Positions 7,114-22,301 of a stretch of 22,308 bases of DNA are shown here, in pieces; within the stretch, counting starts at the first letter, position 1; every line of letters starts with the position of its first letter. Source of the stretch: a virus; the IMG/VR virus record IMGVR_UViG_3300001533_001757, positions 1 to 22,308 of that record; one strand, given 5' to 3'. Below the pieces are notes generated by a model, which was not told the DNA's origin, did no database searches, and worked only from the letters and a program-made list of their open reading frames with translations. The translations under genes and the position numbers were made by a program.

Positions 7114-7128
7114 AAGGCATCACCGCCC

Positions 7129-8202
7129 TTAAGCATTTATATCCAATACTTTTGTTGCTTCTTTGAAGATTTTGGAATAACCATTGTTTTCAGACAAAGT
7201 AAGAACCTGAGTCTGATTGGTTATGAACCTGTCTGCTTCCTGAATGTCCGAACCAGCTTCTGTTACCTGTTCAATGGCATATTGCTTATTGATACCAAGT
7301 ACTTTCAGACTGTCTACATTGCTATTCCAGAACAAGTTCAATTGCTTATCTGGAAGTTGCGGCATTGAAAGTTTTACGCCAGCAGTAGATCCCTGAGATA
7401 AGAAGCTCAAAACATCAGTTGCAGTATATGCCCCTAAGTCTGTCAACACTAGTTGTAGAAAAGCATCCTTTGCTGCAATAACAGTATCGCAAGGAAACTC
7501 TTCAAATTCCATAAGGAAAGCTATCCATCCTTTTGCTGTCAATGTACCCTCAGATGCCGCGGTATCAAGATCTGTCAGGTTGTGATTTTCGGCTGCGTTG
7601 TCGTTTTCATCGCCGTCCGTGATAACATCAATTATCTCCTCAACTTTGTCTTTCGCCGCCTGCATACCGAACCTGCGTATATGGAGTGCCAAAAGGTCAA
7701 TCTGCATCCTTCTAATAACCTCATATGACGCTTCAATCGCCCGCCCGTATTTGTAAATCTTAACCTCTTGCTGTCTTGTTACCAGCTTAGCTCTCGGAAT
7801 TTCCGAAGCCTCTGTAACCCTTTTCATCGTTTGCTTAGTGGGCTGGTCATCGGCATACACTGTTTTATAACTATTACTGTCGATGGTTGTATACTGCCCT
7901 ATAAGATTTGGCAATATGGTGTCATTTACAATTGCTTCCCTTACGCTTCTTGCAACGAATTCAGGAAACAATATATCATTATCTTCCGTGTGATAAAATG
8001 CTTCTTCAACAATGCTTGCGGATATACCTTTTGCATAGTTGGATTTTGTCAATATCCCACGCACTTTTAATTGACGCTCATAGGCATCAAGGGCATCTCC
8101 ATCCTGTGATGGGTTAATCGATTCGAGATATTGCGAAAATGTCAGCTTTTTTAAAACTGCTTTTTTAAACATACTTCTGTCAAGATCAATTCTTTCAATC
8201 AT
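7129..8202 (-). CDS. Major capsid protein (HK97 fold), putative
   Basis: The start is set at ATG 8202 (MIERIDLDRSMF; 357 aa) because the earlier ATG abuts the AGAAAGGAG site at 8215-8223. The protein has a helical N-terminal arm, a segment 'YKYGRAIEASYEVIRRMQIDLLALHIRRFG' (overlapping parts) resembling the spine helix and P-domain strands of HK97-fold coat proteins, a 'KGWIAFLMEFEEFPCDTVIAA' A-domain strand pattern, and a C-terminus rich in Thr/Asn. It lies downstream of portal, protease and decoration genes and upstream of the adaptor, the canonical order. With an encoded prohead protease, N-terminal processing is possible, but no cleavage site can be assigned. Confidence 0.85.
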   Translation of the reverse strand: MIERIDLDRSMFKKAVLKKLTFSQYLESINPSQDGDALDAYERQLKVRGILTKSNYAKGISASIVEEAFYHTEDNDILFPEFVARSVREAIVNDTILPNLIGQYTTIDSNSYKTVYADDQPTKQTMKRVTEASEIPRAKLVTRQQEVKIYKYGRAIEASYEVIRRMQIDLLALHIRRFGMQAAKDKVEEIIDVITDGDENDNAAENHNLTDLDTAASEGTLTAKGWIAFLMEFEEFPCDTVIAAKDAFLQLVLTDLGAYTATDVLSFLSQGSTAGVKLSMPQLPDKQLNLFWNSNVDSLKVLGINKQYAIEQVTEAGSDIQEADRFITNQTQVLTLSENNGYSKIFKEATKVLDINA

Positions 8203-8214
8203 TTTAAGAGTCAT

Positions 8215-8223
8215 CTCCTTTCT
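8215..8223 (-). promoter_or_regulatory. Extended ribosome binding site for the major capsid gene
   Basis: AGAAAGGAG on the minus strand is followed at once by ATG and, 9 nt later, by the ATG at 8202. The site matches the far 3' end of 16S rRNA and decides that the second ATG is the real start. Confidence 0.7.
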
Positions 8224-8234
8224 AAAAAATAAAA

Positions 8235-8630
8235 TCAGGCAATGAGAACCATTACCTTAGTATTTGTCGCATCAACGCTAACTGCCCTTGCGGGACCAGC
8301 TGTTCCGTCCGATGCGGCGCTTACATTACCGGATCCGTCCACCACCACAAAATCGCCAGCCGTAGGCAATGCGTCCTCAATGCCGTCGAACTCAGTAAAG
8401 CCTTTAATTTGAACGGACATTTTGTGATCATCTTCATATTTGTGGATTCTTCCAAGCAACGGATCACCTGCAGACCCGTACCCGGCTATACCGTTGCCTG
8501 TAAGGGCAACAGCTTTGCCGTCAACATAAGATGCACCACTTACAAGCATCACGGAGCTTACACTACCGTCTGCATAGAAAGTGCTGCGGAGAGAACCCTC
8601 GCCCTCCCAGTCAATCTGATTACGTGACAT
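8235..8630 (-). CDS. Capsid decoration / cement-like protein, putative
   Basis: The start is placed at ATG 8630 (MSRNQIDWEGEG; 131 aa). A longer frame crosses the AGAAAGGAG site (8643-8651) and a terminator-like hairpin, so it is rejected. The product is small, Gly/Ala/Val/Asp rich and strand-like, with 'AVALTGNGIAGYGSAGDPLLGRI' (overlapping parts) and 'GDFVVVDGSGNVSAASDG', a pattern typical of small beta-barrel capsid-stabilising proteins of the DUF2190 or lambda gpD kind. It lies immediately upstream of the major capsid gene, where decoration proteins are encoded, and shares its strong leader. The exact family is not proven. Confidence 0.65.
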   Translation of the reverse strand: MSRNQIDWEGEGSLRSTFYADGSVSSVMLVSGASYVDGKAVALTGNGIAGYGSAGDPLLGRIHKYEDDHKMSVQIKGFTEFDGIEDALPTAGDFVVVDGSGNVSAASDGTAGPARAVSVDATNTKVMVLIA

Positions 8631-8663
8631 ATCAAAATTCAACTCCTTTCTTAAAATAGGCAT

Positions 8664-8687
8664 AAAAAATACCCATAAGTATGGGTA
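8664..8687 (-). terminator. Intrinsic-terminator-like hairpin upstream of the decoration and capsid genes
   Basis: On the minus strand TACCCATA and TATGGGTA form a stem of up to 8 bp around CT (in practice 7 bp with a 4-nt loop), followed directly by six T. The stem has only three G-C pairs, so it is a weak or partial terminator. It lies between the protease/scaffold stop (8724) and the decoration start (8630). Confidence 0.5.
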
Positions 8688-8723
8688 CAACTTCAAACTA
8701 CTGATTTTGTCCGCAACGATATA

Positions 8724-9218
8724 TTAAATTTTATAATAATCGTCCGGTATTGCATCTTTCTTCCCAGATCCGTCGTTGGACTTAAAACTGGTTCTTTTCC
8801 CAGCAGGAATTTCTTCCTCTGCCTGTTTTTTAAATCCATCCCTGAAATCTTTAATGGCCTGAATTGTGCGTCCGGGTTCTGATAGCATCTGTTCCCACGA
8901 ATCTTTGCTGAATTCGTTCCCTTGTGCCCTTACGCCCCACTCAATAGCATCGTCAACGAGTTCTTTCCTGTAAGCCATGCCTTCTTTAGCGAATAAAAGT
9001 ATCTGGTCTGCAGAATACTCTTTGCCAAGAACTTCAATGGCCTTTTCTTTTGGCATGAAATCTTCTGTCTGATCAAGTTTTGCTTCTACCAACTCAATTG
9101 TTTTGGTAGACTTATCCCATTTTTCGGCGACTTGGGTAAGAACATCTTCAAAATTGGTTTCGCCTTCTTTGAGTGTTATCCCAAACGTTTCAAGCATTTC
9201 AAGCGTTTTTTCGTTCAT
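8724..9218 (-). CDS. Putative capsid scaffold from an internal in-frame start
   Basis: Within the protease frame, an ATG at codon 290 (MNEKTLEMLETFG) is preceded by GGGAAGGTGG about 10 nt upstream (around 9229-9238), a ribosome binding site with no reason to exist inside a coding sequence otherwise. The 164-aa product would be acidic and coiled-coil-like, typical of scaffolds. Lambda Nu3, made from inside gene C, is the precedent. Evidence is the site and the domain boundary; expression is not shown. Confidence 0.55.
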   Translation of the reverse strand: MNEKTLEMLETFGITLKEGETNFEDVLTQVAEKWDKSTKTIELVEAKLDQTEDFMPKEKAIEVLGKEYSADQILLFAKEGMAYRKELVDDAIEWGVRAQGNEFSKDSWEQMLSEPGRTIQAIKDFRDGFKKQAEEEIPAGKRTSFKSNDGSGKKDAIPDDYYKI

Positions 9219-10085
9219 CTTATCATCACCACCTTCCCTAGTATACATAGATATAGCAGACTTATTTACAAGGTCATTTTTCTTTGCGAGTACCACAAGC
9301 CGGTCTTTTGCAAGGCTGTAAATACACTTTTTGGGGATATCCTTTTTAAAGTCTTTTTCTCTAATACTGGCATATTCAGATGTCTCTATTTCGCCGCCAT
9401 TAGACAATATCCCAGCGGAATCATAAGCACCGTCAAAAACTCCGGAAAGCTCCATAAGATAACCAGGAGGCTTTCCTACAACATAGCAAAGTTTCTCTTC
9501 CCCGTTTATGTTGTAAGTGGCACCCGGCCAGTGTTCACATTCCCTTATATTCTTCCCACATATCGAACACTCGGAAGTGGAAAAGCCAAAACCAATTGAT
9601 ACGTCAAACAACGTACCGTCCTCTATATCAGCTATTATCTGATCGGTCTTAATGCCGTCCTTTTCCTTACCTCGGACAATATATACGTCGCCATGCACCG
9701 CCCAAGCTTCACCATCTATGTCGCCTTTTTTGGTTAATGCATCATATGTCCTTCCATATGAGTAAGCGGCCTTTGGTCTGCTAAAAACGCCCGCCCATGG
9801 ATGGTCGAGCATAAAAGATACCCCTTTTTGCGCATCAACCTTGTATATATCAAGCAATGACTTGTGAAGCTTTATATATCTATCTTCTATAAGCCTATCA
9901 CCGATCATTTTTGTTCTAAATGAAAAGACTTCATCTGACGATAAAGCCCTTTTAGACAAAGTATTTATTTTTTCAAGTTGACCAGCGGTAGGTGTTCCAT
10001 ATTGTCTTGAAAGATCTATCTCAGAACTAACAGAAACAGCATCTCCATCAACACTTTCCATAGTAGCAATTGAACCATTAGGCAT
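8724..10085 (-). CDS. Prohead protease with C-terminal scaffold domain
   Basis: A 453-aa protein starts at ATG 10085 behind AGAAAGAAGGTGA (10092-10104). Residues about 50-230 look like a caudoviral prohead serine protease: 'MLDHPWAG' supplies the likely catalytic His95, and 'DVSIGFGFS' supplies the likely nucleophile Ser163. Just after this, C173-x2-C176-x6-C183-x-H185 forms a probable zinc knuckle. Residues about 290-453 are acidic and helical with poor conservation, ending KDAIPDDYYKI, as expected for a scaffold that fills the procapsid and is then digested. An in-frame internal start at 9218 could make that part alone. The gene sits between portal and capsid genes. Fusion of protease and scaffold is known in lambda (C/Nu3) and relatives. 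Confidence 0.82.
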   Translation of the reverse strand: MPNGSIATMESVDGDAVSVSSEIDLSRQYGTPTAGQLEKINTLSKRALSSDEVFSFRTKMIGDRLIEDRYIKLHKSLLDIYKVDAQKGVSFMLDHPWAGVFSRPKAAYSYGRTYDALTKKGDIDGEAWAVHGDVYIVRGKEKDGIKTDQIIADIEDGTLFDVSIGFGFSTSECSICGKNIRECEHWPGATYNINGEEKLCYVVGKPPGYLMELSGVFDGAYDSAGILSNGGEIETSEYASIREKDFKKDIPKKCIYSLAKDRLVVLAKKNDLVNKSAISMYTREGGDDKMNEKTLEMLETFGITLKEGETNFEDVLTQVAEKWDKSTKTIELVEAKLDQTEDFMPKEKAIEVLGKEYSADQILLFAKEGMAYRKELVDDAIEWGVRAQGNEFSKDSWEQMLSEPGRTIQAIKDFRDGFKKQAEEEIPAGKRTSFKSNDGSGKKDAIPDDYYKI

Positions 10086-10156: not shown

Positions 10157-11581
10157 TCATCGCAATACCCTGAATTTTTTATCGTCTGGATCCTGTTTTT
10201 GTTTCCTCTTATCATCGTTGTTTCGTACACCTTCATCACCCCCTGTAACACCTAAACTTACACGAATGTTTTCGTTAGGAGTACTAACGGCTTTATCGAC
10301 ACCACAGACCTCTGATGCTGCAGTGTCAGCATCTATCCATCCCATCATCTGCGAAATGGCATAAAATTTTTCCTTCAGGATGTTTACTGTCATTCGTTGC
10401 TCTTCGCTGTTCCAATCAATAAGATTGTGTTCAAAAACAGGGATCGCTTGTATACCATTTACTCTCAGCCATAACCGGGCCACTTCCTCTACAAGCCTTT
10501 TGCTTCCCCTTTGTATGCTTGCTATACCAGAACAAAAAATACGGAATTGAACAGTTCCCCAAGACTCTGTTATGCCCTGATTTCTATTCATAAAAATAGC
10601 CATCTGTTTTGTGCCGGACAGTGTTTGAACAGAGAGCATTTCATCTATTGCACGAACATCGAGGCTCCTTGAAGTGTTGGCTCCCTGATTCGTGTTTATC
10701 TCCACATCATCGAAGTGCAAATAGTCATCGTCTGGTTCTATTTTTTGGAACATGGACCTGATATTATTCCACTGATCATTAAGCCAATCTGATAATTTTT
10801 GAGGGTTGTTTTTTATCATGGATGGAGCAGCACTTAACATTCTCTCCAAAATTATTTTAATATCATTTTTGGGGTACCCCTGATGGTGTAAAACTGCTTG
10901 TAAGTCTTGTAATATCTGCATCTGAAAATCTATTGCCTGCAACACAGGCGACAAAATCAAACTACCACGAGGATCATTTATTTCCGGATCGGTCGGCACC
11001 CAAAAGAAATTTGCGATGCCTTGTTCAAGAGATTGATTTTTTAGCCATTGCTGCTGATATGGGATCCATGTCTCCCTTCCATTCCGCTCTTCAAGCGCCC
11101 AATATATCGTTTTTGGCTTTACAGGGAAAACATCATAGATATTTGTTCTGGATTCTTCAACTTCAACCTCCACGCCCATAGCTCCCTGCATAAAGGCACT
11201 GTGATGAAGTTGGTCTATAAGTCCGTCAAGTCCCGAATTCGATATTTCGTTTATCCTTGCTGCAAATTTTCTCCAATCTTCTTCAATTCCCGGTATTTTA
11301 TGTTCCCCGTCAATGGTATAAAAAGACATTTTGTTGCCTTGGTTGGCAAGTCGGACAAAATTCCATACGGCCATTGACACATCAGGATTAACTTTTTTCA
11401 GATATTCAATTGCCGATATCTGATCTTTCTGTTTCCTGAGTGTTTCCAACACATCGGATGTAATTGACCGAGATGGCGAAAGCCTTGCCCTTTTCGTCCC
11501 CGGCGATGTTACTCTTCCTGTTGGGATTTTCGTCTTGGGCCTATCTCTGCTTTTGGCAAATATATCATTAAAAACACCCAT
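10157..11581 (-). CDS. Phage portal protein
   Basis: A 474-aa protein starts at ATG 11581 behind TAAGAAAGGGGTGG (11591-11604), where the upstream stop codon forms part of the site. The portal is the dodecameric ring at the capsid vertex through which DNA is packaged. Supporting sequence includes 'NPDVSMAVWNFVRLANQG' near residue 65, typical of the portal N-terminal wing, a long helical central part with 'AIDFQMQILQDLQAVLHHQGYPK', 'QTLSGTKQMAIFMNRNQGI' and a C-terminal clip/crown that ends in a Lys/Asp-rich tail. Size and position before the protease gene match. It is separated from the terminase by about 9 kb, which is unusual. Confidence 0.85.
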   Translation of the reverse strand: MGVFNDIFAKSRDRPKTKIPTGRVTSPGTKRARLSPSRSITSDVLETLRKQKDQISAIEYLKKVNPDVSMAVWNFVRLANQGNKMSFYTIDGEHKIPGIEEDWRKFAARINEISNSGLDGLIDQLHHSAFMQGAMGVEVEVEESRTNIYDVFPVKPKTIYWALEERNGRETWIPYQQQWLKNQSLEQGIANFFWVPTDPEINDPRGSLILSPVLQAIDFQMQILQDLQAVLHHQGYPKNDIKIILERMLSAAPSMIKNNPQKLSDWLNDQWNNIRSMFQKIEPDDDYLHFDDVEINTNQGANTSRSLDVRAIDEMLSVQTLSGTKQMAIFMNRNQGITESWGTVQFRIFCSGIASIQRGSKRLVEEVARLWLRVNGIQAIPVFEHNLIDWNSEEQRMTVNILKEKFYAISQMMGWIDADTAASEVCGVDKAVSTPNENIRVSLGVTGGDEGVRNNDDKRKQKQDPDDKKFRVLR

Positions 11582-11601: not shown

Positions 11602-11880
11602 TTATTCAACATGTTCTATGGCATCCAGTATTTGAGCTTTTGCAAGCGAAGATAGCGATTGAGAATTCTCGACGAATGATATTAAATTTTTATAATCAGT
11701 CTTATCAATGTCAATTTTTTCGCCATTATAAAGTTTCACAGCCCAATCGTAATACTTTAACGCCTTGCCATTCATTCCAGCATCGCCGGCAAGAACATTG
11801 GCGATTATTTTGTTCATATCGCCTGCAGGGATTTCTTTCCCATCAAGCCCTTTTAATTTCTTGTTTAGATCAATAAGCAC
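11602..11880 (-). CDS. Small conserved-type phage protein, unknown function
   Basis: The best start is GTG 11880 (MLIDLNKKLKGLDGKEI; 92 aa), because AGGAGG lies 9 nt before it; a longer frame from 11916 reads through that site. The sequence 'LDLNKKLKGLDGKEIP'-like N-terminus, a central 'ALKYYDWAVKLYNGEKIDIDKTDY' (overlapping parts) and a C-terminal 'LAKAQILDAIE' helix look like a recurring small helical protein found near phage structural genes. I do not know its function. It begins 13 bases after the methyltransferase stop and its own stop merges with the portal ribosome binding site, so it is co-transcribed with the head genes. Confidence 0.7.
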   Translation of the reverse strand: MLIDLNKKLKGLDGKEIPAGDMNKIIANVLAGDAGMNGKALKYYDWAVKLYNGEKIDIDKTDYKNLISFVENSQSLSSLAKAQILDAIEHVE

Positions 11881-11893
11881 TCCTATTCGCCTC

Positions 11894-12436
11894 CTAATTG
11901 ATTGCTTTTTCAGCAAGGCAATAAACCAAATAACCTTCCGATTCTTCCTTGCCGAACAGTTTTGCCCATCCTTCTCCCATAACGCCCTTGTCTATTACTT
12001 TTAAGCCGATTTTTTCGTGAAGCTTCGCAAGTTTTTCTACCGAATAGTCATCTTCTTTGCGCCATTCCTCCGGCCATCTTGCTGACCTGAACCGTTTTGC
12101 GTTCATATAAGATACGCAATTTGAGTTTGGGACAAACGAAAGGACGTACTTGGTTGATTTGTTCGCCATTGCAGCCAACACTTCTATTGCTTCATGTTCA
12201 GAGTAATGTTCTAAAAGCCCGGAGCTGAAGATCATTTCATATTTCTTCCTTGTCTTGAAATTCCTGATGTCGGCTTTTTTAACATCACTTCGTGATGGGT
12301 TCAGATCAATTCCATCGCCGCCAACTGCTTCCATGAGTTCACCTGTCAGTGCACCTACTTCAAGTATTCTTTTTACTCCAAGCTTTTTTACATATCCCGT
12401 GAAATCTTTGATAAAACCCTGTTCGTTTAAAGACAT
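11894..12436 (-). CDS. Class I SAM-dependent methyltransferase
   Basis: The start is ATG 12436 (MSLNEQGF; 180 aa), preceded by AAGGTGGTGG; earlier GTG codons are part of that site. Motif I is LEVGALTG (residues 25-32), the acidic SAM ribose contact is in GIDLNP (Asp44), and 'FSSGLLEHY' (70-78) is the usual motif IV region of methyltransferase type 11/12 small-molecule enzymes. It lacks a DNA-target motif (no DPPY or NPPF), so a sugar, glycan or small-molecule substrate is likelier than DNA. It closes the glycosylation cluster, directly after a GT2 gene, suggesting it caps or modifies the glycan. The substrate is unknown. Confidence 0.75.
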   Translation of the reverse strand: MSLNEQGFIKDFTGYVKKLGVKRILEVGALTGELMEAVGGDGIDLNPSRSDVKKADIRNFKTRKKYEMIFSSGLLEHYSEHEAIEVLAAMANKSTKYVLSFVPNSNCVSYMNAKRFRSARWPEEWRKEDDYSVEKLAKLHEKIGLKVIDKGVMGEGWAKLFGKEESEGYLVYCLAEKAIN

Positions 12437-12454
12437 TTTTAAAACCACCACCTT

Positions 12455-13168
12455 TTATAAATTATTTTTTAACCTGCGCTTTATTGCTTCATCTTTTATG
12501 CCATCCACTACTTTTTGGAAAACCTTGCCGCCTCCATACTGATAATAAGCACTTTCTCTATAATGTCTATAAAAGTATAAAACTTCGTCCACAAATAAAA
12601 GTTTTGTATGTTCTTCCATAAGATAACCAATATATACGTCCTGTGCTGCAGGGCAATTGTTCTTAAAGCCGCCGCTTTTGTTATAGTCTTTCAATTTGAA
12701 TGTTTTGAAATGGCTGGCGCACCATCCGTTTTCAAGCATATTTTCTCCAGGCTTAACGGATCTGTTAAATCCTTTGCATTGAGGCTTAAGCCTTTTATCG
12801 CAAAACATAAATTGTGAGTATATAAACCCGCAGTCAGGATTATCAACATGGGCTTTGAACATAACGTCAACCGCTCTGTGGGAAAGAGCGTCGTCACTCT
12901 CGAGTATGCCAAAATAATCTGTGCCAACATAACCTATGCCCTGTATCAATGCTTCATCCAGACCTCTTTTTGTATCGTTATGGAAAATCTTTACCCTGCA
13001 ATCATCCTGAGCATACCGGTTCAATATATTCATTGAATCATCGTCAGAATCATCGATAACAATGAGATCCCATTCTGGCATTGTCTGATTTTTTACAGAC
13101 CTTAAAGCATCATTAATGCACCATGCCTTATTGTAATTTGGCATTACAATTGAAAATTTAGGCTTCAT
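12455..13168 (-). CDS. Family 2 (GT-A) glycosyltransferase
   Basis: The start is ATG 13168, 9 nt after AAGGAG; an in-frame GTG two codons earlier is too close. The 237-aa protein begins with the classic GT2 pattern FSIVMPNYN (nucleotide-binding strand), 'SVKNQTMPEWDLIVIDDSDDD' in two overlapping parts (first Asp pair, about 39-41), and 'GILESDDAL' with the DxD-type metal-binding ESDD at 90-93. The C-terminal part has 'QDVYIGYLMEE', where the acceptor-side catalytic acid normally lies. There is no membrane helix, so it acts in the cytoplasm. It follows the TagB/TagF-like gene by about 30 bases and precedes a methyltransferase, consistent with one glycan pathway. Donor and acceptor cannot be told. 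Confidence 0.85.
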   Translation of the reverse strand: MKPKFSIVMPNYNKAWCINDALRSVKNQTMPEWDLIVIDDSDDDSMNILNRYAQDDCRVKIFHNDTKRGLDEALIQGIGYVGTDYFGILESDDALSHRAVDVMFKAHVDNPDCGFIYSQFMFCDKRLKPQCKGFNRSVKPGENMLENGWCASHFKTFKLKDYNKSGGFKNNCPAAQDVYIGYLMEEHTKLLFVDEVLYFYRHYRESAYYQYGGGKVFQKVVDGIKDEAIKRRLKNNL

Positions 13169-13197
13169 ATACACGGTCTCCTTGTATAACTAAAATC

Positions 13198-14091
13198 TTA
13201 TAAGAAATTGAGCAACGTGTCAGCGGCCACCTTTCCTGATTTACCTCTTAGCGTCTCCGGGAACATATATTCCATGAAATTTTTAGCGGCGGGTCCCTGT
13301 TGAAATCCGTTTTTTATGAGTTCTGTTACTATTTTAGATAAGTCAGATGGAGATTCCGCTATCCAACATATCTCATCCCCTTTTTCTCTCGTATATAGCA
13401 ACTTTTCAAATCCTACGGGATTTTTAACAACCCATTTGGTTAATATAACAGGGATGCCTAGGCTTAATGCCTCATAAAGCATAGATGACGTGTCGCTGAT
13501 TACAATATCAGCATCGATCAAATCTTTGAGTGATGTTTTCTTTGGATGTTTGCGATTATGAGGGTGCACGCTTTCTACGAATTCGCAACAATCGCCAAAC
13601 AGATCCCGCAAATCAATCTTTTCAAAACCTGTCCACGGCTTGTGAGCATTGTGTGTGGGAACCCATAATATTTTCACCTTATCAATCGGAACACGGCATT
13701 TTTTGCGTGCCTTAAACACCGGGTCTAGCCTGGGATATCCTATAATATGAAGCTTTGTCTTTGGTACTCCTTCATTAACCAATTTGTCAATATAGGCAGG
13801 CCCCGGATAAAGTCCGGCTATCTGCTTGTTTAGATCGTCTACGTTTTGTAGTCCCTTGTCGGCCATGCCATGAGTAATAAATACGGCCGGGAAAAAATCA
13901 CCCAAGGTAAAGGATACCCGGACATATCTGGCATCATTTCTTTCATTTGCTTCTTTAATCGCCTTGCCCGTGGCTATTTTAATTTCATATAAATCTTTAG
14001 GCAAATGCTTTTCAATCGGTCTAAAGTGTGTTTCCGCAATCGCTCCATATGCATCTGATAATGGAGGAAGATAAAATTGAAGCTTGTTCAT
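13198..14091 (-). CDS. TagB/TagF-like CDP-glycerol (polyol) glycerophosphotransferase
   Basis: A 297-aa protein starts at ATG 14091 with AAAGGAG 9 nt upstream. It matches the GT-B CDP-glycerol glycerophosphotransferase family: 'VFITHGMADKG' with the conserved catalytic-type His74, 'HIIGYPRLDPV' (118-123), 'ILWVPTHN' (141-148), 'ESVHPHN' with His176/His178, and 'ISDTSSMLYEALSLGIPVI' (about 198-216), the donor-phosphate loop equivalent to the DYSS motif. It is shorter than cell-wall TagF because it lacks the membrane-associating N-terminal region. Family enzymes move polyol phosphate from CDP-glycerol or CDP-ribitol to a growing chain or linker. With an IspD-like enzyme and an SDR upstream, ribitol phosphate is a reasonable guess for the donor. 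Confidence 0.82.
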   Translation of the reverse strand: MNKLQFYLPPLSDAYGAIAETHFRPIEKHLPKDLYEIKIATGKAIKEANERNDARYVRVSFTLGDFFPAVFITHGMADKGLQNVDDLNKQIAGLYPGPAYIDKLVNEGVPKTKLHIIGYPRLDPVFKARKKCRVPIDKVKILWVPTHNAHKPWTGFEKIDLRDLFGDCCEFVESVHPHNRKHPKKTSLKDLIDADIVISDTSSMLYEALSLGIPVILTKWVVKNPVGFEKLLYTREKGDEICWIAESPSDLSKIVTELIKNGFQQGPAAKNFMEYMFPETLRGKSGKVAADTLLNFL

Positions 14092-14117
14092 CCTTCCGTC
14101 TCCTTTAACTTTTGTTT

Positions 14118-14399
14118 TTAAACATTGTCATTGTATAAAACGTCTTTTAAAACATCGTCAATTTTAAATCTCGAATCATCCACGTGTAACTTTCTCAAAT
14201 ATTTTATCTGGCTCGCCATATCATGCCAAGCAAATGGGCTGGACCATATTTCGTGACCCGGAACCCATTTGCTCCTGAAAAAGTCAAATCCTGTAGCATA
14301 GACCAATTTTGCGTTGCCGTACAAAGCGTCTGCAATGGCAATGGTTCCAGTATTCGGATTGCCACTGATATAGGATGTCATTTCAGTATATGATTTTTT
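14118..14399 (-). pseudogene. 3' fragment of a sialyltransferase-like (GT29/GT42-like) gene
   Basis: Only the C-terminal part is present: the frame is open from the mini-element edge at 14399 to the TAA at 14118, and the first Met (14381) has no ribosome binding site. The segment 'SGNPNTGTIAIADALYG' followed by 'LVYATGFDFFRS' is like the P-S/T-T-G…A…GFDF motif of bacterial sialyltransferase-type glycosyltransferases; a C-terminal 'HDMASQIKYLRKL' helix follows. The N-terminal donor-binding half is missing and the upstream side is a different gene (KdsB-like), separated by the element at 14400-14562. It is most simply a truncated remnant. The family call is moderately sure; the fragment's inactivity is inferred. 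Confidence 0.6.
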
Positions 14400-14562
14400 T
14401 TGAACCTCCCACGAATAAATTCACGGGATTCTCTTAATCCTTCTCAACCACAAGGGGAACTTTCGTTTTACGAGATTTCAGTTTCCAGAGCTATGTGCTG
14501 CTATCTTACGGATAACTTTTATAAACCTTTGACCTAACTCACGAATGAATTCACAAGTGTGC
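14400..14562 (-). mobile_element. Non-autonomous IS200/IS605-like mini-element, copy A (long form)
   Basis: A 163-bp block with no transposase or tnpB gene. Read on the minus strand it starts just after TTTGACC and ends …GGGAGGTTCAA. Near the right end CCCGTGAATT…TATTCGTGGG (14408-14427) is the degenerate hairpin typical of IS605/IS1341 right ends, which serves as the omega-RNA scaffold 3' end in TnpB systems. The left end holds an inverted repeat: GGTCAAA (rc of 14528-14534) pairs with TTTGACC (rc of 14563-14569) around an imperfect palindrome containing TGAATTCA. The same 96-bp right part and 28-bp left boundary recur without mismatch at 19553-19676. Ends were chosen by comparison of the two copies. 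TTTGACC is the likely insertion target and TAM-like motif. Confidence 0.75.
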
Positions 14563-14850
14563 GGTCAAATCTGCATCAATTCTAGTTGAAACTTCATATA
14601 TTCTATCCGTAGGATTTAAATGCTTATCAGATGTCATTAAAACGTTGACATTTAACCTTTCGCAGACTCTTTCTATTCTTCTGTCATCAGTGGCGACCAA
14701 GACATATGTTAATCCCTCAACCTTTTTTACTTCGTTATATACCCACCATATCATAGGCTTACCGCAAATATCTGCCAACGGCTTCCCTTCAAAACGAGTA
14801 GACTTATAACGAGCCGGGATTATTCCAATAACATCCACAATATTTATCAC
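14563..14850 (-). pseudogene. 5' fragment of a KdsB-like CMP-sugar synthetase
   Basis: The first 96 codons of a 3-deoxy-manno-octulosonate (or related acid sugar) cytidylyltransferase are present: 'VIGIIPARYKSTRFEGKPLADICGKPM' (two overlapping parts) is the CTP-binding signature of KdsB/NeuA-type enzymes, followed by 'LVATDDRRI' and 'MTSDKHLNPTDRI'. The frame then enters the mini-element and stops four codons later (TGA at 14551-14553). The family is about 245 residues, so the metal-binding and dimer parts after 'DAD' are lost. The start is a GTG sharing GTGA with the SDR stop. The protein would normally activate an acid sugar with CTP; this fragment cannot be active alone. Confidence 0.8.
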
Positions 14851-15500
14851 TTCCTCGCCGCAATAATCAAATTCCCGTCTAACAGATTATCGTATAATAT
14901 AAGATTGCTTATCATTTCTGCCAGTTCGTCCGGTTGCATAATCCTTTTTGGATCCTCGTCCGGAGCCAATATACTTCGCAATTTAGTCGCACACCGTCCA
15001 GGCGCGATGCAATAAACCCTTATATTGTAAGGACGTAATTCTTCGGCCATTGTCAATGAAAAGTTTATTAAGCCTGCCTTCGCTGCAGCATAAGCACTCC
15101 ATCCCGGTTGAGGTCTGGTTCCTGCGGTAGAAGCTATATTAACTATTTTACCGCCAGTATTCCTGACGCATCTGGCGAATTCACGAGTACACAAGAAAGC
15201 TCCGGTTAAATTTGTGGAAATGGTCTTATCCCAGTTATCCACCGACATTTCAAAAATTCCTTTTGGGTCAACAAATCCGGCACAGTTTACAAGCACGCCG
15301 GGGACCCCATATTCTCTTAGAACACGAACAAATGAACGTCTTATGCTATCTGGATCACGAACATCTGTTTTATAAGATTCAACAAAATCTACCTTTGCCC
15401 TCGAAAAATTAATAACTGTATGCCCGTTAAGTAGTAGCTTTTTTACTATTTCCTTGCCTATTCCGCTACTACCGCCTGTTACGATTGATATAGTACTCAT
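14847..15500 (-). CDS. SDR-family NAD(P)H-dependent reductase, possibly ribulose-5-phosphate reductase
   Basis: A 217-aa classical short-chain dehydrogenase: nucleotide loop TGGSSGIG (8-15), NCAG (72-75), and the catalytic triad Ser124, Tyr137 and Lys141 in the order expected (SxxxxxxxxxxxxYxxxK). A GGAGG site stands 9 nt before ATG 15500. The gene overlaps the IspD-like gene by 32 bases and the KdsB-like fragment by 4, so the three are translated together. In Bcs1/Acs1-type proteins an IspD-like domain and an SDR domain are fused and make CDP-ribitol from ribulose-5-phosphate and CTP; here the parts are separate. Another substrate such as a keto-sugar is possible, as the sequence alone shows only a general SDR. 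Confidence 0.82.
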   Translation of the reverse strand: MSTISIVTGGSSGIGKEIVKKLLLNGHTVINFSRAKVDFVESYKTDVRDPDSIRRSFVRVLREYGVPGVLVNCAGFVDPKGIFEMSVDNWDKTISTNLTGAFLCTREFARCVRNTGGKIVNIASTAGTRPQPGWSAYAAAKAGLINFSLTMAEELRPYNIRVYCIAPGRCATKLRSILAPDEDPKRIMQPDELAEMISNLILYDNLLDGNLIIAARK

Positions 15501-16158
15501 TATATATCGCCTCCGCTATTACAAGGTCAATCGGAGTAGTTATTTTGATATTTTCTTCAAGTCCTTCAACCATAAACGGGCTAATGCCGGTAATGTCTTG
15601 CATCAATGTTGTGTCATCGGGGTATATTGTTGTTCCTGCGGCCTGATGTGCATTTAATAGCAGTCTCCGGTTAAAAACCTGAGGCAATTGGACGTTTCGC
15701 AACAAATCCCTTTCGATATAATATTTATCATCACGCGAAACAACAGTCTGAGAAACAGGCACAACGGGGACAACGGCAGGCATAGTTTCGTGTGAAAGCG
15801 TTAGTCTTATAAGCGTCTCTGTGACAAACGGCCTCACCGCTTCGTGGATTATAACTCTGTCAGTATGGCACTCATTTAACCCTCTAAAAACCGATTCTTG
15901 CCGTGTACTGTCTCCTTCAATTACATTAGTCTTTGTTATGTCATACTTTAATAGCATTTCAACAACATCAACAACGGTTCCAGGAACTGTAACAACTATG
16001 ATTTTACAGATTTCTTCCATTGCCTGGAGAACTTCAAGCGAGTGTATCATTATTGGCTTACCACCAAGCATGGCGAATTGTTTTGGAAAACCCAATCCCA
16101 ATCGTTTGCCCGTACCGGCTGCCAAAAAAACAACGTCAATCAAAAATATCAACCCCAT
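15469..16158 (-). CDS. IspD/TarI-family cytidylyltransferase (CDP-polyol synthase candidate)
   Basis: A 229-aa GT-A-like nucleotidyltransferase. CTP loop 'FLAAGTGKRLG' with Lys/Arg contacts and 'FPKQF' (about residues 11-27), 'EGDSTRQESVFRGL' (about 82-95), 'IHEAVRPFV' with the acid-to-metal segment, and C-terminal 'EGLEENIKITTPIDLVIAEA' all match IspD and TarI. The Glu-Ala-Val form of the Asp-Ala-Ala motif and the close partner SDR fit a CDP-ribitol role better than isoprenoid synthesis, but IspD activity is not excluded. It overlaps the upstream glycosyltransferase by 23 bases. ATG 16158 lacks a clear SD; a TTG 15 bases downstream behind GGGG is an alternative start that gives the more usual family N-terminus. 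Confidence 0.85.
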   Translation of the reverse strand: MGLIFLIDVVFLAAGTGKRLGLGFPKQFAMLGGKPIMIHSLEVLQAMEEICKIIVVTVPGTVVDVVEMLLKYDITKTNVIEGDSTRQESVFRGLNECHTDRVIIHEAVRPFVTETLIRLTLSHETMPAVVPVVPVSQTVVSRDDKYYIERDLLRNVQLPQVFNRRLLLNAHQAAGTTIYPDDTTLMQDITGISPFMVEGLEENIKITTPIDLVIAEAIYNEYYINRNRR

Positions 16159-19051
16159 CTTTAATGGCTTTCCATCTGTGTTGCCATGTCTGCCCTTTTG
16201 CCCATTCCTGGCCTTTTTTGTTATATGGGTGTACCATTGATATTTCTATTGCATTAAGCCACTGACGAACAGATTGAGTGTCAACTGTCTGTATAAGTCC
16301 GGCATCAGCAAGAGGCGTTAACTCAGGTATAGGGCTGGCAACGACAGGCCTTCCTGCTGCAAGGTACTCATAAACCTTAATTGGGGCGCAATATCGCAGG
16401 TAATCGTCATCTAACCTAAACGGTATTATGCCAACTTTTACAGCAGACAGCACCAACGGAAGGTCAGAATATGGCACATGACCAACCATTTCAATGTTTT
16501 GGTTAGTGTTTGTTATTTCGGACTTAGTAGGTCCAATAATAAGGGTTTTATAATCCCTTCCTATCTCCGATATTATATTTCCGTCAATACAACTCGTAAC
16601 AGCCCCCATATACCCCACAACATTTTCTTTCGCCTGTCCTGTTCTGCTAAAATGTTCATAATCGCAGGCGTTTGGTATATACAAAACTTTTCCTTTTGCG
16701 ATTTCAACACAGCGATCATAAAGAAGTTTAGAAGCGCACAAAACGTAATCCGCATCCTGTATGAGTTGCTTGTCGCTCTCCCCAGCCCAGTCGACACAAT
16801 CATAAATTAAATGTTTATAATTAATATTTTTTAAATATTGTCGCTGCGAAAACGATGTTAAATAGACAACATCAACGTTTTTCACATAACCACAATTTCC
16901 CCAATCATTTATTATTGTTAAATACGGAGCAATTTCTCCTATTCCTGCCGCTTTGTCGTCTCCAAAAAATACCCGGTTTCTTTCGCTGGCCATAAGCTTA
17001 AGCAAGTGGTGTGGCCTTTGTTTCATATTCCCCCACTCCATTCCGGGAGGATATGCTATTGTAAGCTTTCCGGTTTGCCAAATATTGTCATTATCCCATT
17101 TTACAAGCTTATTGTCCTTTGATATTATTGACAGATAAACTTCTTGACTATAATACTTGTTTTCAGGATCGTCTCGTTTCTTTTCTTTAAACTTTTCCTG
17201 TCTGTCTTTAGCCTTTACGTATCCAAGGTGTTTTACTCTTATAGGGCTATGTGTTCCCTGCAGCTTAATCACGTTTTCAGGAATACTTCCGCAATGCCTT
17301 TTCTTATCAGACCATATATATTCTTTTACGCAATTTACCCTGAACATCCGTGGAGCATAACCAACACCGGCTGGCCATATATCGTCGTCTCTGTAGTGTT
17401 CTTCATCGTCCCACATGTCATAAAAACGGAATCCCGCCCAATCAAAATCATCCTGATTCATCAAGATTTCAACTTCACGGCTCATACCGTTTTCATAAAG
17501 TTCGTCTGAATCAATAGCAATTACCCAGTCCGGGTTTCTCTGTAATGCATCAATTAAAAGTTCGGCTCTTAACATGGGCTCATTGTCCCAAGACGACACT
17601 GCAGAATAAATAAATAATCTACTCGGATAATCAACCTTTAAATCGGTCAATATTTTTCTGGTACCGTCAATTGAATGATCGTCAAGTATAACCAATTCAT
17701 CGCAGAACTTAAGCGAGTTTTCTACAACTCTTTCAAGATATCTCCGATCGTCATTATGAGTTAGCATCATTCCAACCAGATTTTGCCTCTTGTTTTTAAC
17801 AACCTTCCTCGTAACAATTTCCCCGTCCGAAACAACAGATATAGCGGTTTTATCCTCTTTGTTGCTAAGATCAACGCCCGCAAACAAGGGGCTTTGTCCT
17901 CCGAATTCTGCCAATATTCTCATCCATTTTTCTTTCCATATTTCTATATCGAAGCAACCTCTGGCTATTTCTATATTTCTTTTCCCCATAACTTCACGCA
18001 TTTGCTGATCCGATCCAAGAGCATCTATGTAACGGAACAGATCTTCGTAGTTATCTTCATAGGCAAATCCATTATAGCCATTAATAATTGCATCTCCAAG
18101 TCCACCTACAGGAGTTGTTATCACTGGAAGCCCTGTTGCCATTGATTCTAACAGAGAAAGGCTAAGTCCCTCACTGCATTTTGTAGGTACAACTGATATA
18201 TCTGCCTCCCTGTATATTTCAGGCATCTGTTCCATAGGACGATGCATAATTTTAATATGCGGTGAGTTTTTGTAAAAGTCAGAAAAGCTTCCTCCTGCAT
18301 TTTCATCATGGCATTGCCCGACTATTAAATAATCGTATTTGGTTTCTCCGATCTTTGATGCATATATATCAACGTCATCCTTTGTTGCCTTAATAAACTC
18401 ATTTATGCCTCGAAGGGTTGTAAGCCGTCTCGGGAATAAAACCCTTAATTTGCCAGGATCTCTTTTTGATTCCGGATAAAACTTTCCCGTATCAACAAAG
18501 TTGTATATAATTCTTATTCGTGATTCGGCCCCCGGTTCGATTGATGCAATTACTTTTTTTACATTGCTGTCAACCGAAATACAAACATCCGGTGCCGTAA
18601 AACCATAGAGCTGTTTTTTCATGTATTCTCTTCTGTCATTGCCGCATAAATGCTTATATTCGCCATAAGGCTGTTCCCAGTAAACCCCGTGGCTTATTGA
18701 AATACATGGGCTTATTGCCTGAGGATATGCAAGGTACGTCGCAAAATATATTCTTAGGTCATCCAATGTGGCCATTTCATTAAAAACCATATTCAGTTCA
18801 GAATTAGTGGTATATTTCCACCCTGCGTTCAGATTTCCTATACATATAATCGGGATGCCTTCATAAAACTTTTCAACATTTGTTTTAGCCCCGGCAAGTG
18901 CCTGATAAACCTTAACATCGTGCCCCAAAGATTGCAATAATTTGCAAAACTCGATAAGATATCTTTCAGCCCCTCCGAATACAATCTTATCTTCTCCGTG
19001 GACTTCTTTTACTTTTGTGTAAAAGTAAGCAGTAAGTATTGATATTTTCAT
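16136..19051 (-). CDS. Three-domain glycosyltransferase fusion (GT4-like, GT2, GT-B)
   Basis: The start is ATG 19051, 7 nt after GGAGG; an ATG two codons earlier is only 1 nt from it. The 971-aa protein has three catalytic-type domains. Residues 1-385 are GT4: GGAER (26-30) and EGLSLSLLE with Glu294/Glu302 (E-x7-E). Residues about 425-650 are GT2: 'LVILDDHSIDGT' (457-460) and 'IAIDSDEL' with the DSD metal motif (514-516). Residues about 660-971 are a second GT-B domain with 'RPHHLLKLM' and 'KVYEYLAAGRPVV' (892-904). The joint at 388-425 ('FAGVDLSNKEDKTAISVV') resembles an RNase H-like strand and is unexplained. No transmembrane segment is seen. It probably builds several linkages of one glycan; donors are unknown. 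Confidence 0.88.
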   Translation of the reverse strand: MKISILTAYFYTKVKEVHGEDKIVFGGAERYLIEFCKLLQSLGHDVKVYQALAGAKTNVEKFYEGIPIICIGNLNAGWKYTTNSELNMVFNEMATLDDLRIYFATYLAYPQAISPCISISHGVYWEQPYGEYKHLCGNDRREYMKKQLYGFTAPDVCISVDSNVKKVIASIEPGAESRIRIIYNFVDTGKFYPESKRDPGKLRVLFPRRLTTLRGINEFIKATKDDVDIYASKIGETKYDYLIVGQCHDENAGGSFSDFYKNSPHIKIMHRPMEQMPEIYREADISVVPTKCSEGLSLSLLESMATGLPVITTPVGGLGDAIINGYNGFAYEDNYEDLFRYIDALGSDQQMREVMGKRNIEIARGCFDIEIWKEKWMRILAEFGGQSPLFAGVDLSNKEDKTAISVVSDGEIVTRKVVKNKRQNLVGMMLTHNDDRRYLERVVENSLKFCDELVILDDHSIDGTRKILTDLKVDYPSRLFIYSAVSSWDNEPMLRAELLIDALQRNPDWVIAIDSDELYENGMSREVEILMNQDDFDWAGFRFYDMWDDEEHYRDDDIWPAGVGYAPRMFRVNCVKEYIWSDKKRHCGSIPENVIKLQGTHSPIRVKHLGYVKAKDRQEKFKEKKRDDPENKYYSQEVYLSIISKDNKLVKWDNDNIWQTGKLTIAYPPGMEWGNMKQRPHHLLKLMASERNRVFFGDDKAAGIGEIAPYLTIINDWGNCGYVKNVDVVYLTSFSQRQYLKNINYKHLIYDCVDWAGESDKQLIQDADYVLCASKLLYDRCVEIAKGKVLYIPNACDYEHFSRTGQAKENVVGYMGAVTSCIDGNIISEIGRDYKTLIIGPTKSEITNTNQNIEMVGHVPYSDLPLVLSAVKVGIIPFRLDDDYLRYCAPIKVYEYLAAGRPVVASPIPELTPLADAGLIQTVDTQSVRQWLNAIEISMVHPYNKKGQEWAKGQTWQHRWKAIKDGVDIFD

Positions 19052-19366: not shown

Positions 19367-19793
19367 TTATTGTGGATTATCGGGATCTTGGTAAATAAAA
19401 CCCAAGGTTTTCATTCTCTGTTCATGCTTCTCTTTAATAAATGCCTGCGCCTTTTTTATTTTCTCTTTCGGGAATTGTACTTTTAAATAAAGTATCCCTT
19501 CAGGGTCATCCCTATAATCCCATATACCGCCAAGTTTTTCAGTTCCATCATCTTGAACCTCCCACGAATAAATTCACGGGATTCTCTTAATCCTTCTCAA
19601 CCACAAGGGGAACTTTCGTTTTACGAGATTTCAGTTTCCAGAGCTATGAATGAATTCACAAGTGTGCGGTCAAATCATCATCCACAATTATTTCCAATGC
19701 TAATCCAAGAGGATGAAGAAAAGACCTGTTTATTTCTGCTAAAAGCCCCATTTCCCTGAATTCTTTAATTTCAATCCTTTTAATTTCTGACAT
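19367..19793 (-). pseudogene. Small phage gene interrupted by mini-element copy B
   Basis: From ATG 19793 (AAGGAGG 8 nt upstream) the frame reads MSEIKRIEIKEFREMGLLA… with 'FLHPLGLALEIIV', then enters the element and stops at TGA 19656-19658. After the element the same frame resumes with 'DGTEKLGGIWDYRDD' and ends at TAA 19367. Removing 19553-19667 leaves 42 plus 62 codons in one open frame (103 aa). The joined sequence, with HPLGLALE and DGTE…GGIWDYRDDPEGI, looks like a small conserved phage protein whose function I do not know. The two halves are uninterrupted apart from the element, so the insertion looks recent. Without precise excision the gene makes only a 45-aa fragment. Confidence 0.75.
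19553..19667 (-). mobile_element. Non-autonomous IS200/IS605-like mini-element, copy B (short form)
   Basis: A 115-bp block identical to copy A except that 48 bases (14496-14543 in A) are missing. It retains the right-end hairpin CCCGTGAATT…TATTCGTGGG (19561-19580) and GGGAGGTTCAA end, and the TTTGACC-type left border. It has lost the internal GGTCAAA arm that would pair with TTTGACC, so copy B may be unable to move again. No transposase or TnpB gene occurs in the window, so any mobility or guide-RNA role would depend on proteins supplied in trans. It splits a small gene at codon 42. Confidence 0.75.
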
Positions 19794-19909: not shown

Positions 19910-20584
19910 TTAAAGCAATGATGATTGTATATATTGCGTTCTTAAAGTGGCATCATTACAATACTTCTCGGATATTTCAAAACACATAAAATTCCTTTTC
20001 AGCTTTATGCAGCTATGTGGCGTTGTACCGCTTCCGCAAAAGGGGTCAAGCACTAAATCGCCATGATTTGACACCAACTTGACAATATCATCCCAGCACC
20101 TTACCGGTCGCCTTGCGGGGTGATCTATTTTTGGGGGAGTTTTTTCTATCCACACGTCCATAAAACCAACACAATTTCTATTATTAAGCTTCTTAAATTT
20201 GCCTTTCGTAAAATCCATGATCGGTTCCCAAGAATAAGGCCATTGTCCCGGCCATGACCCCGCTTTTCTTTGAGGGTTATGCCATACCCCTAAATGCCTA
20301 AAAACAAAGCCCATGCTTTCGAGCAAGGGCTTGTATTTCCATATTTGTATTTGAGCGCACGTAAAGGTTAAATGGGCCTTGGGTTTCAACACCCTATATA
20401 TCTCCCTGAAAACAGCTTCAATCCAAATCCAGAAATCATGTTCCTTCATACTGTCCATATGATTATCATATTTAAGCCCAATGTTGAAAGGCGGGTCAGT
20501 AACGCACCCGTCTATACTTTCACTTTCCAGCATTGACATGCCCTCAATGCAATCTAAGTTATATATTTTGTTTGCCTCCAGCAT
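19910..20584 (-). CDS. Orphan beta-class DNA methyltransferase (N6-adenine or N4-cytosine)
   Basis: A 224-aa enzyme starting at ATG 20584, behind GGTGG, 4 bases after the terminase stop. Catalytic motif IV is TDPPFN (29-34). The SAM-binding motif I is DPFCGSGTT (180-188), followed by 'CFEISEKYC' (motif II). The order IV then I defines the beta class, and DPPF/Y points to an exocyclic amino methyltransferase; base specificity is not readable. The middle part (about 100-165, Trp/Pro/Arg rich) would be the target recognition region. No restriction enzyme gene is adjacent, so it probably protects phage DNA or marks it for packaging or gene control. Confidence 0.88.
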   Translation of the reverse strand: MLEANKIYNLDCIEGMSMLESESIDGCVTDPPFNIGLKYDNHMDSMKEHDFWIWIEAVFREIYRVLKPKAHLTFTCAQIQIWKYKPLLESMGFVFRHLGVWHNPQRKAGSWPGQWPYSWEPIMDFTKGKFKKLNNRNCVGFMDVWIEKTPPKIDHPARRPVRCWDDIVKLVSNHGDLVLDPFCGSGTTPHSCIKLKRNFMCFEISEKYCNDATLRTQYIQSSLL

Positions 20585-20588
20585 TGTG

Positions 20589-22301
20589 TTAGACCACCTT
20601 TTTGTTTTGTCTTGGGCGTCCTTTACATTTCCTTCTGTCCTCGTTGCAGCCGGCGCAAGGATCCTCGCCGCTCTGCATCAGGCGGAATATCATTTCCCCT
20701 GGCATCGTGCATGTAGGAGGGACATATCCCTGCCTTACGCAAATGTTAAACATAATATCGTCCGTTTCAGCGAACACATGTTTTTCTTTTTTATCATCCT
20801 GCTTTTTGGTGCTACGCTTGCTGGTCTCAGTAAAGGTTCCTTTCTGTATATTAACCCCTCCGATTCGCCCAACCCAAGGGATATTAAAGACAGTTATCTG
20901 ATAATCATAAAATGCCAGCATCATTGCCGATACAATATCATCGTGTTTGCTCTGGCTGCTCGAAGAAAATCTAATTTTGTTGCTTCGTGTGTATTCGTAA
21001 GTGTAATCCTGCAGCTCATTAATAACTATAGGGTCTTTAGGATAGCTTATGAGTTCCTGTTCCAACAAGATAGCAAGATTATTAACCATGGCTTCTTTCT
21101 CTGCGTTGCTAAACCTGTTAGATATAACTTCAAGTCCACGGTTTGTTAGCATTTCAGGAATGGTTTCGCCGGGTCCATTGCAGTCCATAACAATTACTGC
21201 ATTGTTATATTTGCGCGAGTAGTACTCTATACGGTCAAGCTGTGATGTCCACGACTTGATGCCGCCCATAAGTCTTTCGGCTTTTATCGCTTGCCCCCTT
21301 GAATTCCTTATGACTATTCCTGCAAAGTCAACAGTACGTGCAGGGTCATACCCAATAGTATAAATTTCACCGGGTTCCGGTTCTCCATTCCCGGTATATG
21401 TAGCGCATTTTTCGGCATCCGGGAACACTGCACTGCCATCGGCTATAAACAGCCCCAGAACTTCCTGATCGTATATCCTCTTTGGGAAACGCCTTTTAAT
21501 ACTTTGCAGATACTTCTTGTCTTTTTTCATAAGATACGGGTTGTCCCAAGAAGAAAACTGCCAGCTTTCCCAGCCCTGTTCATATTCGGGGATTTTTTTC
21601 TGTCCCCACCTGTACATATCATAGTAAAAGCCTTTTCCTCGTGGTGTCCCATTAATTAAGGCAAGCCCGCCTGTTCCGTCCGGACCTCTGCCGTCAGACA
21701 AAAGCCTCATTTCGAGGTTGGCCCATACCAGGTCAAAGTTTTTAATTCTTCCCGCTTCTGTTATAAGCACAATGTCGAGTCCGACACCGACTAACCCTTC
21801 GGGATCATCTGCAGAACGCACTTCTATAATTCCGTCGTTGACGGTCTCAATCATCTTGTCGGAATCCCATACGTTCATTATCCATTCGTTTGGGAAAAAG
21901 GTTTTTAACTCCCTCCACAACTGTCTTGCTAATGTAAAAGTAGGAGCAATTATCCATCCGTGTACGGAAGGGATAAGCTCCGGCCCCCTGTATTCCGACA
22001 ACATCTGGCTGAATTTAAGTATAAATTCATTAACCATGCATCTATCTTTACCAAACCTGGCCCCTGCTGCAAGCACTTTAAATCTTGCCGTGCTGTTGTG
22101 AATCGGGATCTGGTTTTCGTGCGGCTTATATGGAATATGCGCATTAAAATAGCCCCTTGCAATCGCCATTCTGCAGTCGGAGCATAATTCAAACTGCGTA
22201 TAAATTTGTCGTTCGGGCCTCCACACCTGTTCAAAAGATTTTCCACACTTCTTACATATTGATATTTTTCCTCCTGAAGTCTGGTCAATCCGCTGTTCCA
22301 T
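20589..22301 (-). CDS. terL: Phage terminase large subunit (ATPase-nuclease)
   Basis: The packaging motor and DNA cutter. ATPase: Walker A-type GARFGKD (80-86, Asp instead of Ser/Thr at the end), Walker B 'GLDIVLITEAG' with likely catalytic Glu182, and coupling motif 'INGTPRG' (216-222). Nuclease: RNase H-like triad candidates Asp319 ('GYDPARTVDFAG'), Asp373 ('VMDCNG') and Asp454/455 ('HDDIVSAMML'). The N-terminus carries C16-x2-C19 and C40-x2-C43, a probable zinc ribbon, and the C-terminus has C549-x2-C552-x6-C559. The product is 570 aa from ATG 22301, but only 7 bases precede it, no ribosome binding site can be seen and the frame is open upstream, so the true start may lie outside. No small subunit is in the window. 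Confidence 0.93.
   Translation of the reverse strand: MEQRIDQTSGGKISICKKCGKSFEQVWRPERQIYTQFELCSDCRMAIARGYFNAHIPYKPHENQIPIHNSTARFKVLAAGARFGKDRCMVNEFILKFSQMLSEYRGPELIPSVHGWIIAPTFTLARQLWRELKTFFPNEWIMNVWDSDKMIETVNDGIIEVRSADDPEGLVGVGLDIVLITEAGRIKNFDLVWANLEMRLLSDGRGPDGTGGLALINGTPRGKGFYYDMYRWGQKKIPEYEQGWESWQFSSWDNPYLMKKDKKYLQSIKRRFPKRIYDQEVLGLFIADGSAVFPDAEKCATYTGNGEPEPGEIYTIGYDPARTVDFAGIVIRNSRGQAIKAERLMGGIKSWTSQLDRIEYYSRKYNNAVIVMDCNGPGETIPEMLTNRGLEVISNRFSNAEKEAMVNNLAILLEQELISYPKDPIVINELQDYTYEYTRSNKIRFSSSSQSKHDDIVSAMMLAFYDYQITVFNIPWVGRIGGVNIQKGTFTETSKRSTKKQDDKKEKHVFAETDDIMFNICVRQGYVPPTCTMPGEMIFRLMQSGEDPCAGCNEDRRKCKGRPRQNKKVV

Follow-up and report, generated by a model that had tools for sequence, protein, structure and literature searches.

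A putative late glycosylation cassette at an exchangeable site between the terminase and portal genes of a tailed phage

The virus record IMGVR_UViG_3300001533_001757 of IMG/VR, analysed here over its complete length of 22,308 bases (the window) and itself a fragment of a phage genome, carries a set of glycan genes between those of the terminase large subunit (TerL) and the portal. We consider it probable that this set is a late, virion-directed glycosylation cassette lodged at an exchangeable site, with the capsid cement protein as a possible acceptor. TerL and portal are 9.0 kb apart, and most of this distance is occupied by same-strand glycan genes, the minus-strand order being TerL, DNA methyltransferase, triple glycosyltransferase (GT), IspD, short-chain dehydrogenase/reductase (SDR), KdsB piece, GT29-like piece, TagF-like transferase, GT2, methyltransferase, small open reading frame (ORF) and portal (Table 1). 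An earlier note on this DNA had described a separation of about 9 kb occupied for the most part by phage-strand glycan genes, with which coordinates and family matches agree, and overlaps between neighbouring frames of 4 (GTGA), 23 and 32 bases, which follow from the coordinates. G+C is even throughout the cassette, and the single terminator-like candidate found there on the minus strand (17535) is intragenic.

The TagF-like protein scored 19.7 bits against PF04464, which is below the cut-off of 22.1. Its AlphaFold2 (AF2) model, built from a 32-sequence alignment (pLDDT 87.9, pTM 0.88), had TagF as best Foldseek match (E 9e-9, TM 0.57–0.64), followed by Cps3D and TarL (E 1.8e-7 for TarL with CDP-ribitol), with the fold-sharing UDP-GlcNAc 2-epimerases ranking lower. 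The profile of the same protein matched Cps3D (6e-7) and TarL (5e-5) in the PDB. In the alignment H74-G75 is invariant and D200-x-[SG]-S203 is kept; this D/S motif aligns with that of TarL and Cps3D, the aligned stretch ending short of the His region. Fold and profile matches together confirm a TagB/TagF-like assignment that had been made from the letters, and the protein, as modelled, has the TagF/TarL fold. Similar enzymes occur in dozens of metagenomic phage contigs, among them L016, where TagF is fused to a methyltransferase (L plus a number labels the related loci compared with the window), and tblastn detected one in a single phage record out of 50,697 (Thermobifida phage P1312).

The families of the cassette proteins were assigned with Pfam/NCBIfam and PHROG profiles. 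Pfam and NCBIfam upheld the identities previously proposed for the triple GT, IspD, SDR and GT2; the methyltransferase, frequently the final glycan gene ahead of the portal, matched its family weakly, and the KdsB-like and sialyltransferase-like genes turned out to be truncated pieces. The triple GT has a full-length relative of 966 aa in L054 (53% identity), and the closest solved chains to the window IspD are those of IspD and TarI. Family searches of the cassette proteins revealed no GtrA flippase, TagO/TagA or membrane bactoprenol GT, and the highest 19-residue Kyte-Doolittle mean was 1.77 (in IspD), so that strongly hydrophobic segments are lacking.

The combination of IspD, SDR and TagF recurs in other phages. 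Of fifty viral loci bearing TagF, 29 have IspD nearby, 30 have SDR and 28 have the two together, with IspD ahead of SDR in 28/28 and their ends often overlapping. These 28 loci, from other phage groups, span 14 TagF clusters at 70% identity and show the order IspD-SDR-TagF; those whose surroundings were inspected lie within head-gene clusters. A CDP-polyol route, suggested before for the window, is supported by this recurrent arrangement. Within the window's own family, the cytidylyltransferase beside TagF is of IspD type in the window, TagD-like in L016 and an NTP_transferase in L048 and L053. Since the type of cytidylyltransferase is swapped beside the same transferase, a CDP-linked donor can be argued for, and these sequence comparisons support CDP-alditol phosphate as that donor. 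In another phage group (L091, L098, L105, L114) the module lies shortly upstream of the scaffold and major capsid protein (MCP) genes, with a minor head protein gene also upstream of it in L091 and L105, and some module-bearing members of this second group add PseB-like, DegT, NeuB-like, CTP_transf_3 and GT29 genes. Such members hold both CDP-alditol and CMP-sugar genes; thus the two-arm combination of the window recurs elsewhere. As a separate observation, L091, L098, L110 and L114 have partial pathways of nonulosonic-acid type within head-gene clusters of uncultured phages.

The site of the cassette shows rapid turnover. A search with a portal alignment retrieved 71 loci from viral sequences and another 5 from named genomes, namely two of Tissierella and three metagenome-assembled genomes (MAGs) labelled Clostridia, Bacillota and Rikenellaceae; alignments succeeded where single window proteins, used as queries of the viral scan, gave few or no relatives. 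Across these relatives the TerL–portal gap contains no cargo (about 200–460 bp), small ORFs, a GT4 gene alone, GT4 with a methyltransferase (L003, L028, L056), the 966-aa triple GT with a methyltransferase (L054), GT4 and TagF sets with a methyltransferase in some (L016, L030, L085), or, in L053, a large set that includes genes for radical-SAM, SDR, nucleotidyltransferase and TagF proteins. In most distant relatives and outgroups the gap measures 9–400 bp, with no GT. GT presence changes no fewer than 7 times on the portal tree, where TagF sets occupy 6 separate places. These comparisons identify the TerL–portal gap as a place at which this family of tailed phages exchanges accessory genes, which bears out the idea of an inserted late cassette: cargo varies in the relatives, and in the outgroups TerL adjoins the portal. 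The advised search for the same gene set between terL and portal in other phages yielded related GT and TagF sets, the cargo differing from one relative to another. A host-chromosome origin of the genes was considered and rejected, because, among 391 genomes of the same class, no more than 2 strongly matched the GT4 part, and one of these matches was the L078 phage itself. The gap of L016 also holds a diversity-generating retroelement (6804–9634) consisting of a variable protein, a 111-bp variable repeat/template repeat (VR/TR) pair and a reverse transcriptase, with 15 of the 16 TR/VR differences falling at TR adenines; its presence there counts in favour of a late, virion-directed role. The gaps of L011 (5355–9926) and L012 contain three large proteins (708, 266 and 532 aa) that look like tail spikes or fibres, with a single weak Big_2 match.

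A candidate acceptor emerged from the head genes. The model of the protein encoded directly before the MCP had head chains of HFTV1 as top Foldseek hits, followed by head structures of Pam3, T1, XM1 and TW1, and its L036 counterpart weakly matched Pfam Phage_cement. L018, with the GT, and L023, without it, are ~96% identical from the portal leader to h195, including an identical MCP protein; the exception in this aligned stretch is the protein before the MCP (137 against 253 aa, 42% identical). GT state changes 2 times on the cement tree versus 5–6 times on eight other gene trees and, in a larger set, 2 versus 6–8 times on the trees of other structural genes. The loop G[VI]SG.LP, small variants allowed, was present in 17/19 cement proteins of phages with the GT and in 0/14 of those without (Fisher p 1.5e-7, kinship ignored); the GT was scored as present in L007, L018, L020, L033 and L053 from contigs that end short of TerL. 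Presence of the GT seems to track the cement-protein variant, a suggestive association that makes the cement protein the likeliest candidate for glycan acceptor in this family. Separately, two cement proteins, those of the cassette-free L023 (3725–4486) and of L015 (3450–4199), carry an additional inserted domain of ~115 aa with a weak Bbp16 match.

Under the favoured reading, the cassette genes would be expressed late alongside the head genes. IspD and SDR would produce a CDP-activated alditol phosphate (CDP-ribitol type). A virion protein would receive, in the cytoplasm, a short glycan assembled by the GT4/GT2/GT4 enzyme together with the separate GT2; alditol phosphate would be transferred to this glycan from the CDP donor by the TagF-fold enzyme, and the methyltransferase would cap or edit the product. 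The acceptor in the family would most likely be the cement protein, and the glycan might shield or alter the virion surface. Gene content, TagF fold, the recurring module, the turnover at the site and the co-segregating cement gene are computational results, and activity, donor identity, acceptor and role are inferred from them. A second arm, using a CMP-sugar through KdsB-like and GT29-like enzymes, would have been destroyed around an element resembling those of the IS200/IS605 family. More tentatively, an exchangeable 'virion capsule locus' may exist in some tailed phages that infect Clostridia and their relatives: late cassettes would build alditol-phosphate (teichoic-acid-like) or ulosonate glycans directly on the cement protein, the enzymes and the matched cement variant being swapped jointly.

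Several observations weigh against virion glycosylation as outlined. The KdsB and GT29 genes are broken, and the cassette may be decaying. Three curated cut-offs were missed, two by IspD (174.5 versus 181.3 bits for ispD and 106 versus 166 for NF001183, ribitol-5-phosphate cytidylyltransferase) and that of PF04464 by the TagF-like protein, and L030 and L085 have TagF with no recognised cytidylyltransferase close by. The cement loop motif was defined after inspecting the alignment; the window protein reads GIEDALP, with no Ser, where its relatives with the GT have G[VI]SG.LP; and L055 has the GT yet carries the other cement type. Contrasts that take kinship into account number only 5, of which 3–4 were concordant and 0 opposite, a non-significant result (p 0.125), so that the link between cement protein and GT is suggestive but unproven. 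Finally, the window contig is incomplete.

Decoration of the virion had been put forward together with remodelling of host teichoic acid against superinfection, and of the two we favour the former. Its main rival would have the enzymes act late on wall glycopolymer precursors, blocking superinfection or aiding release, and leave the virions unglycosylated, which we judge rather unlikely. It would fit the TagF/TarL fold, the TuaG/TuaH-like similarity and the weak PHROG match of GT2 to GtrB-like phage enzymes. However, it has to contend with the absence from the cassette of a GtrA flippase, TagO/TagA and strongly hydrophobic segments, with placement in a late head operon in two phage groups, and with the co-segregation of the cement gene, which it leaves unexplained. 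The comparison with hosts that had been advised was partly informative: in three genomes of bacteria that host related phages PF04464 is absent, but two of these (L076/L079) carry cassette-free phages, which limits the weight of this result. Virion decoration is favoured because membrane or lipid-carrier genes are missing, the genes lie in the head operon, the cement gene co-segregates and the three hosts have no PF04464.

A still less probable explanation is that the cassette, once useful, is being lost as neutral cargo and has little function left in this phage. Gain and loss at the site are indeed fast, the window cement loop lacks Ser, and two copies of the element lie in the region, the KdsB and GT29-like genes being truncated at copy 1 and a small ORF split by copy 2. 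The KdsB frame enters copy 1 and stops there, the C-terminal part of the GT29-like gene lies on the opposite side, and each gene is partly missing, through either a deletion or the collapse of a repeat during assembly. Both had earlier been taken as working parts, a reading that their truncation on the flanks of the element does not support; as a consequence of this truncation, the CMP-sugar arm is, from the sequence, probably dead in this phage. Assignment of the second piece came from weak (20–23 bits) matches to phage proteins, those of L114 in turn matching PF00777 (GT29); it had no direct Pfam match, and neither this fragment nor the GT29 of L114 matched anything in phage records. On the other hand, the six frames of the triple GT, IspD, SDR, TagF, GT2 and methyltransferase are all open in the window, several of them overlapping, the TagF motif residues are retained, and related sets are intact in many relatives, all of which argues against general decay.

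The element at copy 1 has hairpins at both ends and a right end (...CCCGTGAATTTATTCGTGGGAGGTTCAA) which we take to resemble the 3' ends of IS605-type tnpB genes. Its left end is 88% identical over 40 bp to the one belonging to an element of L137, a genome of class Clostridia like that of Tissierella pigra. There, an HUH-type tnpA with a frameshift and a tnpB frame follow the left end, both transposases having been recognised by eye. TTTGAC precedes both copies or sits inside their left end. Copy 2 is bordered by GATGAT repeats, whose presence on either side is unexpected for the IS200/IS605 family. The element was not found when searched for as a DNA pattern in viral contigs, and its RNA fold was no better than those of shuffled sequences (z -0.83).

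Two further explanations appear very improbable. Decoration of phage DNA by the transferases has in its favour the DNA methyltransferase gene beside TerL and the frequent modification of DNA by phage GTs (literature cited in PMC12619734); nevertheless, no cassette enzyme matched base-modifying or DNA-glucosylating families, the genes are placed late, and TagF with CDP-alditol enzymes belongs to wall and capsule chemistry. A chimeric assembly in which phage and host sequences met, conceivably through the 100–170 bp element present twice, is suggested by the two near-identical copies in one contig, copy 1 being flanked by parts of two different genes. Yet G+C is even and, contrary to this possibility, which the earlier note had raised, many independent contigs of relatives, some of 65–70 kb, as well as a genome MAG have homologous sets in this gap. 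A local collapse between the element copies around KdsB/GT29 is possible.

The window shares with the wall teichoic acid polymerases TagF and TarL and the capsule polymerase Cps3D its best fold and profile matches and, in the alignment with TarL and Cps3D, the D/S motif; His-Gly is invariant and D-x-[SG]-S kept in the 32 aligned sequences. It differs in that its 297-aa protein, scoring below the PF04464 cut-off, comprises the transferase domain only, has no TagO/A/B or export genes with it and sits in a phage late operon. CDP-ribitol synthesis of the Bcs1 or TarI-TarJ type resembles the window (14847–16158) and 28 other loci in having an IspD-type cytidylyltransferase adjoining a reductase; in the window, however, the genes are separate and unfused, the reductase is an SDR (FabG-like) and the cytidylyltransferase scores below the NF001183 threshold. 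The late modules of L091, L098, L105, L110 and L114 share the IspD-SDR-TagF order, the proximity to head genes and, in some, CTP_transf_3/GT29, whereas they belong to another phage group and another site (before scaffold-MCP) and some include PseB-, DegT- and NeuB-like genes, none of which is in the window. The gtr seroconversion clusters of temperate phages are likewise phage-borne sets of GTs, with the GtrB-like match of GT2 as a further resemblance, but the window has neither flippase nor membrane GT, and its genes lie in a late virion operon rather than in a lysogeny region.

Virion glycosylation by phage enzymes is already known. In mycobacteriophages (Che8 and others), capsid and tail-tube proteins carry glycans (Freeman et al. 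2023, as cited in PMC12619734 and PMC11256854), and Maravista has its GTs near the genome 3' end (PMC11256854). Phage-encoded GTs are the common feature with the window, which differs in its swappable set, its TerL–portal site, the predicted alditol-phosphate chemistry and the cement protein as candidate acceptor. A literature search of incomplete coverage found nothing direct on alditol-phosphate, CDP-ribitol, nonulosonic acid or ulosonate in phage virions. Phage virion glycosylation is known chiefly from a few actinobacteriophages, and our results suggest that a version using donor chemistry of teichoic-acid type is widespread, mostly in uncultured phages. Naming the cement protein as candidate acceptor from sequence alone makes the target of head-operon GTs directly testable.

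Table 1 Features of the window, by position.
Feature	Coordinates	Strand	Evidence
Major capsid protein (MCP)	7129..8214	-	phrog_3922 E 4e-64
Predicted capsid cement/decoration protein	8235..8696	-	phrog_4588 virion structural protein; Foldseek; co-segregation
Portal, right flank of site	10157..11581	-	phrog_3753 E 2e-46
Small conserved ORF directly ahead of portal	11602..11916	-	Cluster of 22; cassette-free relatives included
Class-I methyltransferase	11894..12451	-	Family match weak, below cut-off; 46% to L003
GT2 glycosyltransferase, 239 aa	12455..13174	-	PF00535 E 8e-23
Predicted TagF/TarL-fold CDP-alditol phosphate transferase, 297 aa	13198..14091	-	AF2 model and Foldseek
C-terminal piece of GT29/sialyltransferase-like gene	14118..14381	-	Weak matches to L114/L118 proteins
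Element copy 1, IS200/IS605-like	14400..14571	-	Left-end hairpin; TnpB-type right end (...GGGAGGTTCAA)
Truncated KdsB/CTP_transf_3 gene, N-terminal piece	14551..14850	-	PF02348 positions 1-87 of 217
Short-chain dehydrogenase/reductase, 217 aa	14847..15500	-	PF00106 E 2e-44; 32-base overlap with IspD
IspD-family CTP cytidylyltransferase, 229 aa	15469..16158	-	PF01128 E 2e-45
Triple glycosyltransferase, 973 aa	16136..19057	-	Pfam/NCBIfam: GT4 (1-387), GT2 (~427-700), GT4/TuaH-like (~750-970)
Small phage ORF, split by element copy 2	19368..19793	-	~104 aa if intact, e.g. L046 8826-9140
Element copy 2, shorter, non-autonomous	19553..19676	-	100% identical to copy 1 across 96 + 29 bp
DNA methyltransferase adjoining TerL	19910..20584	-	phrog_67 E 3e-45
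Terminase large subunit, left flank of site	20589..22301	-	phrog_2 E 3e-41

Among the flanking genes, the small ORF ahead of the portal had no family match, and its cluster of 22 relatives spans phages with and without the cassette. An Rfam scan of the window gave nothing relevant. The DNA methyltransferase is not clearly a member of the glycan set; the gene at the equivalent position of L046 resembles it weakly (24% identity). In L076 (5923–8694) and L035 (4676–7453) the TerL frames are 923–925 aa long, compared with ~530 in relatives, possibly owing to an intein. In L105 (2085–4658) the minor capsid protein contains an intein, marked by intein-splicing and DUF559 domains.

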